A stretch of DNA of 64,000 bases from Pirellulales bacterium (GTDB lineage Bacteria; Planctomycetota; Planctomycetia; Pirellulales; JADZDJ01), in the NCBI GenBank assembly GCA_035656635.1, contig DASRSD010000145.1, positions 62,001 to 126,000 of the forward strand, read 5' to 3'. Both the position numbers and the translations under genes were made by a program. The notes beneath the pieces are model-generated. The model worked only from the letters and a program-made list of their open reading frames with translations, did not search any database and was not told where the DNA came from. This document shows, one piece after another, positions 37,529 through 58,028 of the stretch; the stretch's first letter is position 1; each line of letters begins with the position of its first letter.

Positions 37529-38179
37529 ATGCGCATCGCCAGAATCACGTTGCAGGGAATTCTTTGGGCAGCCCTTTGTGTTTTGACCATTAACCAAGCA
37601 CAAGCGGGAAACACTTACAACGAATCGACCAGCACCGATCTGTCAAATAATCAAGCAGCGCCCACTTCATTTTCACTTACCTCTGGCACGAACCCGGTCA
37701 TCGGGAACGTGGGCGCGGCGGTAGGAGATATGCAAGATTGGATTGCGGTCTCCGTACCTAGCGGATTTCAGTTGAGCTCGCTGATTTTGCACTCGTATAT
37801 TTCAAACGATGTGCAGGGATTTACGGGGTTCCAAGCCGGTTCGGCGTTTTCGGGAAATCCTCAAACCGCTCCCAGCGCCTACGAAGGCTATACCCATTTT
37901 GGCACCGCAGCTCAAAATGGAGTTCTCGCGGCGGTTAATTTGGTGGGACAAGATCTGTTGCCAGTGATGGCAAATCCAGCCGATGCACCGGGCTCGCAGG
38001 GTTTCACGCCGCCATTGGCCGCGGGAACTTACACTTTTTTGGTTCAGCAGTCGGGCGCTTCGACGAGCTATGAATTTGATTTCGGTGTTACCGCGGTTCC
38101 CGAACCGGCTTCCCTGGGCCTGATGGGCTTGGCCGGTGCGGCTTTGCTGGCCGTTGCTTTTCGACGCCGCAAACAATAA
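37529..38179 (+). CDS. PEP-CTERM exported protein
   Basis: A 216-residue protein with a signal peptide ('RITLQGILWAALCVLTINQA') and a C-terminal sorting tail: 'VPEPASLGLMGLAGAALLAV' followed by the basic end AFRRRKQ. The ATG at 37529 is chosen over an upstream in-frame ATG because it follows a GAAAGG ribosome site. PEP-CTERM tails are processed by exosortases; none is in this window. The body, rich in Ser, Thr, Asn and Gly, is probably a beta-sandwich ('GDMQDWIAVSVPSGFQLSSL') with no catalytic residues recognised. It stands alone and converges on glnA. Confidence 0.85.
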   Translation: MRIARITLQGILWAALCVLTINQAQAGNTYNESTSTDLSNNQAAPTSFSLTSGTNPVIGNVGAAVGDMQDWIAVSVPSGFQLSSLILHSYISNDVQGFTGFQAGSAFSGNPQTAPSAYEGYTHFGTAAQNGVLAAVNLVGQDLLPVMANPADAPGSQGFTPPLAAGTYTFLVQQSGASTSYEFDFGVTAVPEPASLGLMGLAGAALLAVAFRRRKQ

Positions 38180-53154: not shown

Positions 53155-53195
53155 ATCCTGGATTCGGGGGAATCCACGGACAGCGGGAGGTCGAG

Positions 53196-56100
53196 TTGTA
53201 TCCGGCCAAGCATCTATTTGCCGCACGCCCGGCGTTTTGCTGGAGCGTGGTCGTTAGCGGCATTTTGTTGAGTGCTATTGGCTGGCCGGCGGCCCAGGCG
53301 GCAACCGTCAACGTGGCAGCCGGCAATTCCAGCGCCCTAAATACGGCCATGACCAACGCCAAGCCGGGCGACACCCTCGTGTTGCTGGGCGGCACGTACA
53401 ACACAGGCATCACAACGCACACCGATGGCACTTCCGCCGCGCCGATTACCGTGATCGGCACCAATGGCGCCAAGTTGAACAGCTCGGTCACAACCACCGG
53501 CAGCGGAATTTCCTGCAGCAACGACTACTGGGTATTTCAGAACATTGCCATCAATGGTTTTCAAAAATCGGTGCGGATCGACAACGGCTCGCACGGAATT
53601 CTAAACGGCCTGGTCTGCACCAACTCCGGCAATGAATCGATCAAGCTGAAAAATTCGTCTCAGTATTGGCTGGTCGAAAACTGCTCGGCTTCCAACGCCG
53701 GCATGGAAGGCTATTACTGCGGCGACGCCGACCAGAATTGGGAAGGGGGCGTGCCCGATCAAACCGGCTTCGTCACGTTCTACCACGACACCGCTTTCCA
53801 AACCTTCAACGACGGCTTCGATTCCAAGGAAGGAACGCACGATATTCGGATTGTCGATTGCTCGGTCGATTGGAATAACACCGTGCCCGGCGGCAACGAC
53901 GAGGGAGACAGCGGCGTGTACGATCGCGCCAATGGAATTCAGGTGGTGAACTTGAACGCCAAAAACAATGGGTCGGTGGGAAACGGCGTTCGCGCCAACA
54001 AATTGACCGCCGTGAACAGCGTGACGTATGGCAGCGGGGCCCAGATTTATGGGCTGGTGCTGAACAACATGCAGGGCACGCTGTTGTCGACCAATCAATC
54101 CGACACCGCCTTATACACGAATTACTCGATGACCAATGTGGCCGGTGGAATTGGCAGCTCCGGCCACACGCAACCCAGCCCCGCCACGTTTTCGCTGACC
54201 GGCTGGAGCGACCCCACCGGTAGTTTCCCGACCATCAACATGGTTTGGGACGACAGCCAATCGGCAGTGGGCAATGGCGCGACGTGGGATTACAACCAGC
54301 AAAATTTCAACGATCCGGGGGTGAACGGAAATATTCCGGTCATTTTTTTCCAAGGGGTGAATGTCGTTTTCAACGACAGCAACAACGGCCACTACAACGT
54401 AACCATTGGCGCCAATGTTAGCCCCAGCGAGATTACCGTGAGCAACAGCGCGGGCAATTATTTGTTCAGCGGCAGCGGCTCGATCACGGGCGCCGCCACA
54501 CTAACCAAAAGCGGCGCCGGCGTGCTGACCATTTCCAACACCAATTCGTATACCGGCGCTACGCTGGTCAACGGTGGCACGCTGGCAGTGAACGGCAGCA
54601 TTTCGTTCAGCCCCATCACCGTAAACTCCACCGGCGCGTTGCAAGGCGTCGGCAGCTTGGGTAGCACGATAATGGTCGCTTCCGGAGGAACATTGCAGCC
54701 CGGAAACTTTTTCGGCGCGACGGCCACTCCCGGAACGCTAACGGTTACGTCCGCGGTGACGTTCAACAGCGGATCGAGTTTAAACATCGTCTTGCAAGGC
54801 GCCCTCAGCACCAAATACTCCCAACTGCATGCGCAAGGATCGTTGACTCTGGGGGGGACGCTGAACGTTTCGTTGAGCGGCTTCACCCCCTTTGCAGGCA
54901 ACTCCTTCGATATTCTGAATTGGGGTTCGCTGACGGGCGTTTTCAGTACGGTGAATTTGCCCACCATGAACGGCCGCATCGCCTGGAATAGCTCGCAGCT
55001 GTACACCAATGGCACGCTCTCCATTACCGCCACTTATTGGGCTGGAGATTTTGATCGCAATGGCCATGTCGACGCCGCTGACATTCCCGCCATGTTGTCG
55101 GCGTTGGTGAATTTAAGCGGCTATGAATCTGCTAAGGGGTTGACCAGCGCACAGTTGACGCTCATCGGCGATTGCAACGGCGATGGCAAAGTGACCAATG
55201 CTGACGTGCAGGCGCTGTTGAATAATCTCAAATCGGGCGGCGGATCGACTGACGCGGTGCCCGAACCCAGCACCGGATTTCTGGCGCTGCTAGGCGCGGC
55301 GGCAATTCTTCCCTGTCGCTTTTGGCGGCGGTTCAGCGCACTTGTGTTTGGTCTGTATGTGGCGATTTGCTGGGGACCGTTCCAAGCCCGCGCCGCTACT
55401 CCGGTAGTGGTTCAGAACGAAGCTGGCTTCGAAGGCCTGGAAGAACCCAAGGTTATTTACTTTCCCGACACCAACACCTTTGAAAACGATCCCACGAATT
55501 TTCAAAACCACGTGGACGAAGGGGGCGGACTTTTCCGCGATACGTTGCGTAACTACTATTCCACGCTCGGCTGGTGGGATGGCGATGGCGCCGATACCTC
55601 AAACACCGACCGCCAGCGTTCCGAACCCAAAGGCATTGTTGGCCTCGGCCACCAGCAGGTCGAACAGACATTTGAATACTCGTTCGACTTCCGGACCGAT
55701 CCAACCTTCCAGGCCACCAGTAACTTTGACCATATCTTCCAGCTCAAGGCCACCAACGGTGACGATGGCTCGCCGCTGGCCACGATCTCACTTTACAAAA
55801 GCGGGTCCGGCATCCAAGGCAGAGTTGACGCGTTCTCCGACGGCAGCAGCGGCAGCACCTCCGAAACCGTTCCGGTTACTTTCTCCTATACCGCCGGCCA
55901 GTGGATCCACTTTGTCATCCGCATCACGCCTTGTGCCGCCGGGGAAAGCACGGGCCAAATTCAGCTATCCGTCAACGGCGGCGCTTTCACTGGCATTGCC
56001 AACGCCCCTGTCGACCTGACTGGCTCGACCGATTTCCGCCCCAAATTCGGCTTCTACCGTGGCATCTCCACCACCAACGGCGTTCCCGCAGGCATTTCGT

Positions 56101-58028
56101 GGGTGGAACACCGTACCATTACCGGCTACATCGGCACCAGCAATGTGCTCACTTGGAATGGAACAGCGACGACGAGCACTTGGGATAACAATACGACGCA
56201 AAGTTTTTTGAACGGCACGAGCGCTGCGTCGTTTAATATCGACGATCAAATCAACTTCACCGATGCAGCGGCCAATGCCGCAGTGAACATTTCCGGCAAT
56301 GTGTGGCCCAACTACATTCGCGTTAATTCGTCAAAGAATTATGTGCTGTCGGGCACAGGCTCGATTGTCGGAGGCACGCTGCGGAAGGATGGCTCTGGAA
56401 TGTTAACGCTGGCGACGACAAATTCTTATCCCGGTTTGACTGACATACGGGCCGGAACACTGCTTGTCACCGGTTCGGTTGGCAACAATTCGCTGGTGTC
56501 GATTACTGGCGGAACGTTGAAGGCGGGTTCCAGTGCAGCGCTGGGGACGAACTCCACGATTGGAACGCAGATCGACGGAGGCACTCTCGACATCAACGGA
56601 TTCAATCTGACTACGGAGCCGATTTCGGTCGATGGCACGGGTGCAGGGGGCGTGGGGGCAATTATCAACAGCGGCGCCCAGCAAACCAGCGCCTTGACCA
56701 ACGTGACGCTGACGGCCGATGCAACCTTCGGCGGCTCCGGCCGCTGGGATATTCGCGGAACCGGCGCCACGCTGAGCACCGGCGGGACCAGCGCAAATTT
56801 GACAAAAACGGGCACGAACCAGGTGTCGCTGGTCGGCACAAATGTGGATTCGGCGCTGGCCAACATCAACATCAATCAGGGTGAGCTCTGCTTTCAAACC
56901 AGCACCACTTCGATGGGCGACCCAACCAAATCGGTCACTGTGGCCTCGGGTGCGGCACTTGGATTTTTTAACACCACTGCCGTGATGAACAAGCTGTGTA
57001 CACTCAACGGCGGCACCATCTGGGGCGAAAGCGGCACCGGCACGCAAAACACTTTTTCCGGCGCAATCACGCTGGGCAGCGCGGGAGGCGTGTTCGATGC
57101 CGGCAGTGCGCTAACCGGCGGCACGCCCAATGCCAACGCAGTTTTGACCATTAGCGGCGCGATTGGCGGGATCGGCGCGCTGACCAAAAACGGCCCCGGC
57201 ACGCTCACGATTTCGAACATCAACAACACTTGGTCAGGTGGAACGACGATCAACGCCGGCACACTGGTGTTAACTGGAAAAATTCCTGGCGCAGCGACAA
57301 TCAATTCCGGTGCTACGCTACAAGGCTCAGGAAGCGTTGGTGGCTTACTGAGCGTCGCCAACGGTGGAGATCTCGCGCCGGGCAATAGCGTCGGCACGTT
57401 GTCGGTCGGCTCACTCAGCCTAGGAAATGGCGCAACTACGTCGATGGAACTGAGTGGCGCGACCGCCGTTCAATTCGATCAAATTCATGCCGCCGGCCTA
57501 GTAGCCTTGGGAGGCACGCTTTCAATCTCGCTCGTCAATGGCTATGTGCCGCTGTGGGGCAGTGCATTCGATATGCTGAATTGGGGCTCCGAGTCGGGCA
57601 CGTTTAGTACTCTGAATTTACCCAGTATGAATGGCCGCATTGCGTGGGATACCTCGCAGTTGTACACCAGTGGCACGCTGTCGGTAGCCGCCACGTACTT
57701 GGCCGGAGATTTTAATCGCGACGGCCACGTGGATTCCGCCGACATTCCAGCGATGCTCTCCGCCTTGGTAAATTTAAGCGGCTACGAATCGGCGACAGGC
57801 CTGACTGCTCCGCAATTGACGCTTGTGGGCGATATGAACAGCGACGGGAAAGTGAACAATGCCGATTTGCAAGCATTGCTCAACACACTGAAGTCCGGCG
57901 GTGGCTCGACAGCTTCTGTCCCCGAGCCCGAGGGGATGGTGTTACTCTCGCAGGGGGCAATAGCATTGCTGCTGGCGTTGCGAATCGGCAACCCAAATTC
58001 TCGAATCGAACTGCTACGAATTGCGTGA
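53196..58028 (+). CDS. Giant exported protein: two dockerin/PEP-CTERM proteins fused in frame
   Basis: A 1610-residue frame from a TTG that follows GGGAGG by five bases and opens a signal peptide (VVVSGILLSAIGWPAAQA, near 18-35). First half: a right-handed beta-helix like pectate lyases (about 36-300), autotransporter-type beta-strand repeats ('AATLTKSGAGVLTISNTNSY' near 435), a type I dockerin with two calcium loops (about 616-680), and a PEP-CTERM tail ('VPEPSTGFLALLGAAAI' near 688). Directly after it comes a second signal-like stretch ('ALVFGLYVAICWGPFQARA' near 715), a LamG/polysaccharide-lyase-like jelly roll (about 750-975), more beta-strand repeats, a second dockerin (about 1503-1567) and a second PEP tail ('VPEPEGMVLLSQGAIALLLA'). 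The halves share a near-identical dockerin-linked segment. Probable carbohydrate-binding or -cleaving surface protein; no active site was fixed. Confidence 0.8.
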   Translation: MYPAKHLFAARPAFCWSVVVSGILLSAIGWPAAQAATVNVAAGNSSALNTAMTNAKPGDTLVLLGGTYNTGITTHTDGTSAAPITVIGTNGAKLNSSVTTTGSGISCSNDYWVFQNIAINGFQKSVRIDNGSHGILNGLVCTNSGNESIKLKNSSQYWLVENCSASNAGMEGYYCGDADQNWEGGVPDQTGFVTFYHDTAFQTFNDGFDSKEGTHDIRIVDCSVDWNNTVPGGNDEGDSGVYDRANGIQVVNLNAKNNGSVGNGVRANKLTAVNSVTYGSGAQIYGLVLNNMQGTLLSTNQSDTALYTNYSMTNVAGGIGSSGHTQPSPATFSLTGWSDPTGSFPTINMVWDDSQSAVGNGATWDYNQQNFNDPGVNGNIPVIFFQGVNVVFNDSNNGHYNVTIGANVSPSEITVSNSAGNYLFSGSGSITGAATLTKSGAGVLTISNTNSYTGATLVNGGTLAVNGSISFSPITVNSTGALQGVGSLGSTIMVASGGTLQPGNFFGATATPGTLTVTSAVTFNSGSSLNIVLQGALSTKYSQLHAQGSLTLGGTLNVSLSGFTPFAGNSFDILNWGSLTGVFSTVNLPTMNGRIAWNSSQLYTNGTLSITATYWAGDFDRNGHVDAADIPAMLSALVNLSGYESAKGLTSAQLTLIGDCNGDGKVTNADVQALLNNLKSGGGSTDAVPEPSTGFLALLGAAAILPCRFWRRFSALVFGLYVAICWGPFQARAATPVVVQNEAGFEGLEEPKVIYFPDTNTFENDPTNFQNHVDEGGGLFRDTLRNYYSTLGWWDGDGADTSNTDRQRSEPKGIVGLGHQQVEQTFEYSFDFRTDPTFQATSNFDHIFQLKATNGDDGSPLATISLYKSGSGIQGRVDAFSDGSSGSTSETVPVTFSYTAGQWIHFVIRITPCAAGESTGQIQLSVNGGAFTGIANAPVDLTGSTDFRPKFGFYRGISTTNGVPAGISWVEHRTITGYIGTSNVLTWNGTATTSTWDNNTTQSFLNGTSAASFNIDDQINFTDAAANAAVNISGNVWPNYIRVNSSKNYVLSGTGSIVGGTLRKDGSGMLTLATTNSYPGLTDIRAGTLLVTGSVGNNSLVSITGGTLKAGSSAALGTNSTIGTQIDGGTLDINGFNLTTEPISVDGTGAGGVGAIINSGAQQTSALTNVTLTADATFGGSGRWDIRGTGATLSTGGTSANLTKTGTNQVSLVGTNVDSALANININQGELCFQTSTTSMGDPTKSVTVASGAALGFFNTTAVMNKLCTLNGGTIWGESGTGTQNTFSGAITLGSAGGVFDAGSALTGGTPNANAVLTISGAIGGIGALTKNGPGTLTISNINNTWSGGTTINAGTLVLTGKIPGAATINSGATLQGSGSVGGLLSVANGGDLAPGNSVGTLSVGSLSLGNGATTSMELSGATAVQFDQIHAAGLVALGGTLSISLVNGYVPLWGSAFDMLNWGSESGTFSTLNLPSMNGRIAWDTSQLYTSGTLSVAATYLAGDFNRDGHVDSADIPAMLSALVNLSGYESATGLTAPQLTLVGDMNSDGKVNNADLQALLNTLKSGGGSTASVPEPEGMVLLSQGAIALLLALRIGNPNSRIELLRIA

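Follow-up and report, generated by a model that had tools for sequence, protein, structure and literature searches.

The locus raises the question of whether two dockerin/PEP-CTERM proteins that share one reading frame are the product of a very recent deletion between tandem paralogues, or a surface protein of double length that carries a processing site inside it. Both readings were offered by the original prediction. The frame lies at 53196–58028 on the + strand of the window, the whole 64,000-nucleotide stretch analysed from a Pirellulales bacterium, and all window features below are on that strand.

One frame carries the parts of two surface proteins

Translation of the window gives a single open frame of 1,610 residues, uninterrupted from a TTG at 53196 to a TGA at 58026–58028. 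Two complete proteins are therefore held in one frame, as predicted. Half 1 consists of a signal peptide, a β-helix uronate lyase-like domain, passenger-associated (PATR/autotransporter) repeats, a dockerin and a PEP-CTERM tail, VPEPSTGFLALLGAAAILPCRFWRR. Half 2 follows with no break and consists of a signal-peptide-like stretch, FSALVFGLYVAICWGPFQARA|A, a PF14099 lyase, PATR repeats, a dockerin and a weak PEP tail.

A Shine-Dalgarno-like GGGAGG (53185–53190) stands 5 nt before the TTG, and the GGAGG-TTG layout is conserved in the congener G001, which shares the genus but is another species. The TTG start and first signal peptide (53196–53300, ...GWPAAQA|ATV; residues 1–35 by inspection) keep their pattern in G001. 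Domain 1 occupies 53301–54350 and is followed by a PATR repeat at 54501–54590 (PF12951, 1.5e-9; TIGR02601) and by dockerin copy 1 at 55041–55229 (PF00404, 3.9e-6). In half 2, domain 2 occupies 55395–56150, the best stretch of the second PATR region is at 57180–57272 (PF12951, 5.7e-17) and dockerin copy 2 is at 57702–57890 (PF00404, 8.7e-8). The paired calcium-binding repeat of type I dockerins is thus present in both halves. The terminal PEP-CTERM-like tail and stop codon (57918–58028) begin with VPEPEG, also found in G001; the tail is at the C-terminus, though its motif is weak and a Pfam search at a threshold of 0.001 gave no match from 57918 on. A jelly roll had been expected in each half and was found only in half 2, as the lyase domain; half 1 has a β-helix lyase. 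A separate frame of 232 codons at 38099 of the window encodes a PEP-CTERM protein of the ordinary kind, whose canonical tail, VPEPASLGLMGLAGAALLAVAFRRRKQ, is terminal.

Two unrelated lyase domains

Domain 1 matched PDB 6kfn, an alginate lyase of Paenibacillus, by sequence (E 2.5e-11), and its AlphaFold model (pLDDT 75) returned 6kfn as the best Foldseek hit (E 7e-7; TM 0.64/0.75), with the pectate lyase Pel9A (1ru4) second. Resembling 6kfn in both fold and sequence, this right-handed β-helix is predicted to be an alginate/pectate-lyase-like enzyme. Domain 2 is a jelly-roll polysaccharide lyase by its match to PF14099 (8.7e-10 and 1e-10), with 42.3 bits over a curated cut-off of 29.9. Its structure model is of low confidence (pLDDT 51), and its Foldseek matches, to alginate, glucuronan and ulvan lyases, are no more than suggestive.

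Elsewhere in the order, domain 1 has weak relatives only, and domain 2 has none beyond the genus. A scan of the genomes of 84,980 species located relatives of domain 1 in Paenibacillus and related strains. In two Paenibacillus genomes (L049 and L067), a relative of domain 2 is encoded directly upstream of the domain 1 relative as its own secreted protein, and in L049 the two lyase genes are 18 nt apart. These genes are adjacent and homologous to both catalytic domains (about 41% and about 31% identity). Unlike the two halves studied here, they stand in the opposite order, each is a complete gene with a start, a signal peptide and a stop, and they lack a dockerin or PEP tail. Because the pair is separate and secreted in Paenibacillus, a Gram-positive lineage, it supports two separable enzymes. 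Multi-catalytic or dockerin-bearing polysaccharide-degrading enzymes resemble the fused gene in having two catalytic modules and dockerins per polypeptide; they carry a single signal peptide and are not known to contain a hairpin of sorting tail and signal peptide inside the chain.

The joint unites a PEP-CTERM tail and a signal peptide

Residues 688–734 form the joint between the halves. The internal tail (55254–55331) contains the PEP motif, hydrophobic helix and basic cluster of a PEP-CTERM segment, with VPEP at residues 688–691 and the positive charges at R711–R712, which bears out the tail proposed near residue 688. Against PF07589 it scored 24.3 bits in the genome search, above the cut-off of 20.7, and 20.2 bits, just below it, in the protein Pfam search. 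It is not C-terminal; about 900 residues follow it. The second signal-peptide-like stretch (residues 713–733, 55332–55394) directly adjoins the tail and ends in ARA|A, with a signal peptidase I site predicted by the AxA rule between 55394 and 55395. Two hydrophobic segments (residues 692–733) therefore lie between the N-terminal signal peptide and the terminal tail. The stretch had been described as free of any stop, spacer or start codon. There is indeed no stop and no spacer, but two GTG codons (55344 and 55359) lie inside the second signal peptide, both after its only positive charges and neither conserved.

Comparison with G001 indicates that the joint is under selection. Only 19 of its 47 residues are identical between the two species, with zero gaps, yet VPEP, RR, ARAA and both hydrophobic segments are kept. 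The PEP-CTERM tail segment is 36% identical and nonetheless retains VPEP and RR, and the hydrophobic core of the internal signal peptide has a Kyte-Doolittle value of 2.5 in the window and 3.2 in G001. In 20,000 runs of random substitution at the observed divergence, the frame stayed open in 21%, the PEP motif survived in 1.4% and both hydrophobic segments in 1.1%; no run retained all joint features together.

The G001 joint has a TTG at a neighbouring codon instead of the GTGs, and no start codon between the halves is conserved between the window and G001. Because of this, and because purifying selection on the domain 2 lyase is strong (dN 0.05, dS about 1), we conclude that this lyase is translated from upstream. 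Co-translation of both halves is well supported.

The fusion is old and the dockerins evolve in concert

G001 carries the same arrangement in a frame of 1,643 codons, gap-free at the joint. The catalytic domains are 93% (domain 1) and 91% (domain 2) identical in protein sequence between the species, with dN of 0.04–0.05 and dS of about 1.0–1.1. The DNA similarity covers 53186–57955 of the window and begins at 53186; the flanks of the gene gave no match between the window contig and G001:C207, and the fused gene may have moved as a unit.

The assembly of the window's genome comprises 190 contigs and 4.9 Mb. Both there and in two relatives, PEP-CTERM genes often stand in tandem, and the Paenibacillus lyase genes are separate, which would suit a recent deletion, an assembly or sequencing error, or a decaying pseudogene fusion of tandem genes. 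The same frame and joint in the congener's separate assembly, together with a dS near 1 and a low dN in both catalytic domains, rule out a recent fusion or assembly error and leave this whole group of explanations hardly credible. A very recent deletion between tandem paralogues is thus refuted as the origin of the fusion. Nor are the halves paralogues as a whole: the catalytic domains are unrelated, and only the repeat/dockerin tails are paralogous. The comparison with related genomes that had been suggested as a check returned the same fusion in the congener.

The dockerins had been called near-identical. In the window they are 82% identical over 72 residues and 75% identical over 300 nt, and in G001 they are 87.5% identical to each other; between the species, any pairing gives 71–75%. 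Similarity within a gene exceeds that between species and therefore points to concerted evolution of the end-of-half segments rather than fresh duplication. The segments in question, 54897–55196 and 57558–57857, appear to evolve in concert within each species, and gene conversion between them is likely. With 82% protein and 75% DNA identity and the same within-gene pattern in both species, we rejected the dockerins as a mark of recent duplication.

Joints recur across planctomycete families

When the window's genome and two relatives were searched for PEP-CTERM tails, further frames with more than one tail emerged. A second in-frame joint in the window's own genome lies in a frame of 643 codons (L029, G000:C88, 5684–7612) that encodes a β-propeller-like unit and then a second repeat protein. 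Profiles derived from the joints (alignments A2 and A3) were run on two sets of genomes from the order, 147 and 397, and on 392 from the phylum. In-frame PEP-CTERM/signal-peptide joints numbered at least about 90, in 15 genomes of nine families; the counts are lower bounds, with 17–43 candidates per genome scored in most searches and about 150 matches listed. The 92 joints counted include one antisense artefact, L083:1-375. A 4.2-kb contig of G002 (L030) was not relied on for recurrence; its tails look beta-proteobacterial, and the contig may be contamination.

The longest chain, in G029, has up to ten units in one frame of 2,531 codons, with up to 10 PEP-CTERM matches, each passing alone, and nine consecutive joints without a stop. 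G029 supplies about two thirds of the joints counted, and 62 of the 80 tails in its loci that were read are internal (one of the 62 being the antisense artefact). Its tails are near-copies, and PEP conservation there may stem partly from recent amplification. The G029 loci L078–L087, L092 and L102–L106 hold chains of 2–10 units, many with LamG-like (Laminin_G_3) domains. At residues about 1968–2030 of L078, an unusually long hydrophilic loop of about 45 residues separates a tail from the next signal peptide.

Other genomes join other proteins. A frame of 2,427 codons in G046 (L088, G046:C14, 4594–11874, minus strand) has seven units, mostly sulfatase-modifying-factor-like and each with its own tail, in which Pfam detects seven PEP-CTERM and six FGE-sulfatase stretches. 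Chains of two and of four units occur in G052; their units have relatives in G046 and in one unit of a chain in G098. Two chains occur in G008, a near-finished one-contig assembly, and joints are also carried by G158, likewise near-finished in two contigs, and by G072 and G098. A sulfatase is the first unit of the G373 chain, and the second unit of the G032 chain is glucose/sorbosone dehydrogenase-like. L114 and L115 were considered as orthologous three-unit chains and dropped, as only units 1 and 3 match, weakly (26–33%). Across the phylum, PEP-CTERM matches are mostly terminal and joints are rare in most of it; the internal joint is a minority arrangement, heavily used in a few lineages.

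Exosortase (PF09721) was found in all 15 joint-bearing genomes. The match in the window's genome is partial (1.2e-41; profile positions 80–251). In G008, an exosortase match (G008:C1:1484638-1485399) lies inside an open frame of 1,742 codons, far longer than usual.

A model for the joint and its alternatives

We consider it probable that the gene encodes a secreted polyprotein whose joint hairpin is cut by exosortase and signal peptidase I. The single conserved frame, the conserved and recurring joint and the presence of exosortase are read directly from the sequences; from them we infer the topology, the two cuts and the equal amounts of product. One ribosome would make both enzymes, and signal peptide 1 would direct export into the Sec channel. 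Transfer would then halt at the internal PEP-CTERM segment, leaving the RR pair in the cytoplasm, and restart at the next hydrophobic stretch, which would act as signal peptide 2 with the shared RR as its positive n-region. The joint would thus form a two-helix membrane hairpin that leaves both enzymes outside. Signal peptidase I, cutting after ARA, and exosortase, cutting near VPEP, would then yield two separate surface lyases for uronate polysaccharides, one β-helix and one jelly-roll, in 1:1 amounts. In other planctomycetes, the same hairpin would join 2 to 10 units. The double-length surface protein is accordingly the better of the two original readings, supported by the conservation and recurrence of the joint, and it is the AxA and PEP motifs that suggest its proteolytic separation. 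Several points count against this model. Transfer might stop after the hairpin, or the hairpin might stay uncut; the internal tail of the window (RFWRR, 24 bits) is less canonical than most; the exosortase match in the window's genome is partial; and exosortases are known with C-terminal tails only, the internal ones being perhaps non-functional (Haft 2006, PMC1569441).

The main rival, which we regard as unlikely, is a fused bifunctional surface protein that remains uncut, the hairpin serving as a double membrane anchor that displays two lyase arms. The fusion is conserved, it would be sensible to place two cooperating lyases next to each other, and a hydrophobic pattern with positive charges would suffice for such a hairpin. 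A plain hairpin, however, needs neither a PEP motif nor an AxA site. A helix-basic-helix scan that made no use of the PEP motif found 81 hairpins in these frames and PEP in all 81, a result that is not fully independent, as the frames had been chosen for at least one PEP motif; the same scan found one more hairpin, in a window frame that is transporter-like and unrelated. Of the 92 joints, 90 have an AxA-like site after the second helix, versus 66% of random stretches from the same proteins. Each half also ends separately in a dockerin and PEP tail, and an uncut ten-unit chain would make a single protein span the membrane with about 20 helices.

Strong Shine-Dalgarno sites are often missing in planctomycetes, and with GTG codons in the window joint and a TTG in that of G001, domain 2 could start independently inside the joint, the missing stop being incidental. 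This is quite improbable: the candidate starts differ in place between the two species, and starting after RR would leave the signal peptide without a positive n-region. Furthermore, 36 of the 92 joints contain no ATG, GTG or TTG; ATG occurs in 16 of them (17 of 1,506 joint codons), and nine consecutive stop-less joints in one frame are not incidental. The internal PEP-CTERMs might instead be relics, left by chance loss of stops in fast-evolving tandem families and tolerated as membrane anchors. The few internal exceptions have been described as rare and perhaps non-functional (Haft 2006, PMC1569441), most of the phylum has few joints, and a single genome contributes so many of them. Against these stand the long retention in two species, the conserved motif, the spread over nine families and the predominance of internal tails in G029, and we hold the relic explanation to be very improbable.

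Relation to known systems and implications

Secreted polyproteins are, to our knowledge, rare in bacteria. In Bradyrhizobium, the fbcH gene for the cytochrome b/c1 polyprotein likewise encodes two proteins, with signal peptidase cutting at an internal signal sequence; compared with the joint gene, it encodes two respiratory subunits, has no sorting tail and is limited to two units. In viral envelope polyproteins, such as bunyavirus Gn/Gc and pestivirus Erns/E1, an anchor helix also precedes an internal signal sequence at which translocation resumes, and signal peptidase separates the products (PMC7926653, PMC5113920, PMC8002126). They differ in that the genes here are on bacterial chromosomes and use plasma-membrane Sec, and removal of the anchor before the signal sequence is expected to fall to a second enzyme, exosortase. 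The principle of an internal signal peptide is thus already known.

The PEP-CTERM/exosortase system (EpsH, XrtA; TIGR02595/PF07589) shares with the joint genes the tripartite tail, the N-terminal signal peptide, surface-type repeats and a genomic exosortase (PMC1569441). Classical tails are virtually always C-terminal, 87% lying less than 10 residues from the end, and members have no membrane segments between signal peptide and tail, one small family excepted (Haft 2006, PMC1569441); here the tail lies inside the protein, and a new signal peptide follows it immediately. A literature search, with most subscription journals beyond its reach and earlier notice possible, gave no description of PEP-CTERM or exosortase together with a polyprotein.

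The chances are about even that planctomycetes run a general secreted-polyprotein system. In such a system, up to ten surface proteins would be made per message and the hairpin of PEP-CTERM tail and signal peptide would act as a repeated processing cassette, cut by exosortase on one side and signal peptidase I on the other. Exosortase would then be a maturation protease for internal sites, beyond its role in C-terminal sorting, and the joints would provide a simple route by which many surface proteins are exported at a fixed ratio. An internal joint leaves the downstream product with a sequenceable N-terminus, so that where and how exosortase cuts would become directly testable. For annotation, the model would give meaning to frames that are otherwise read as odd giant proteins or artefacts.
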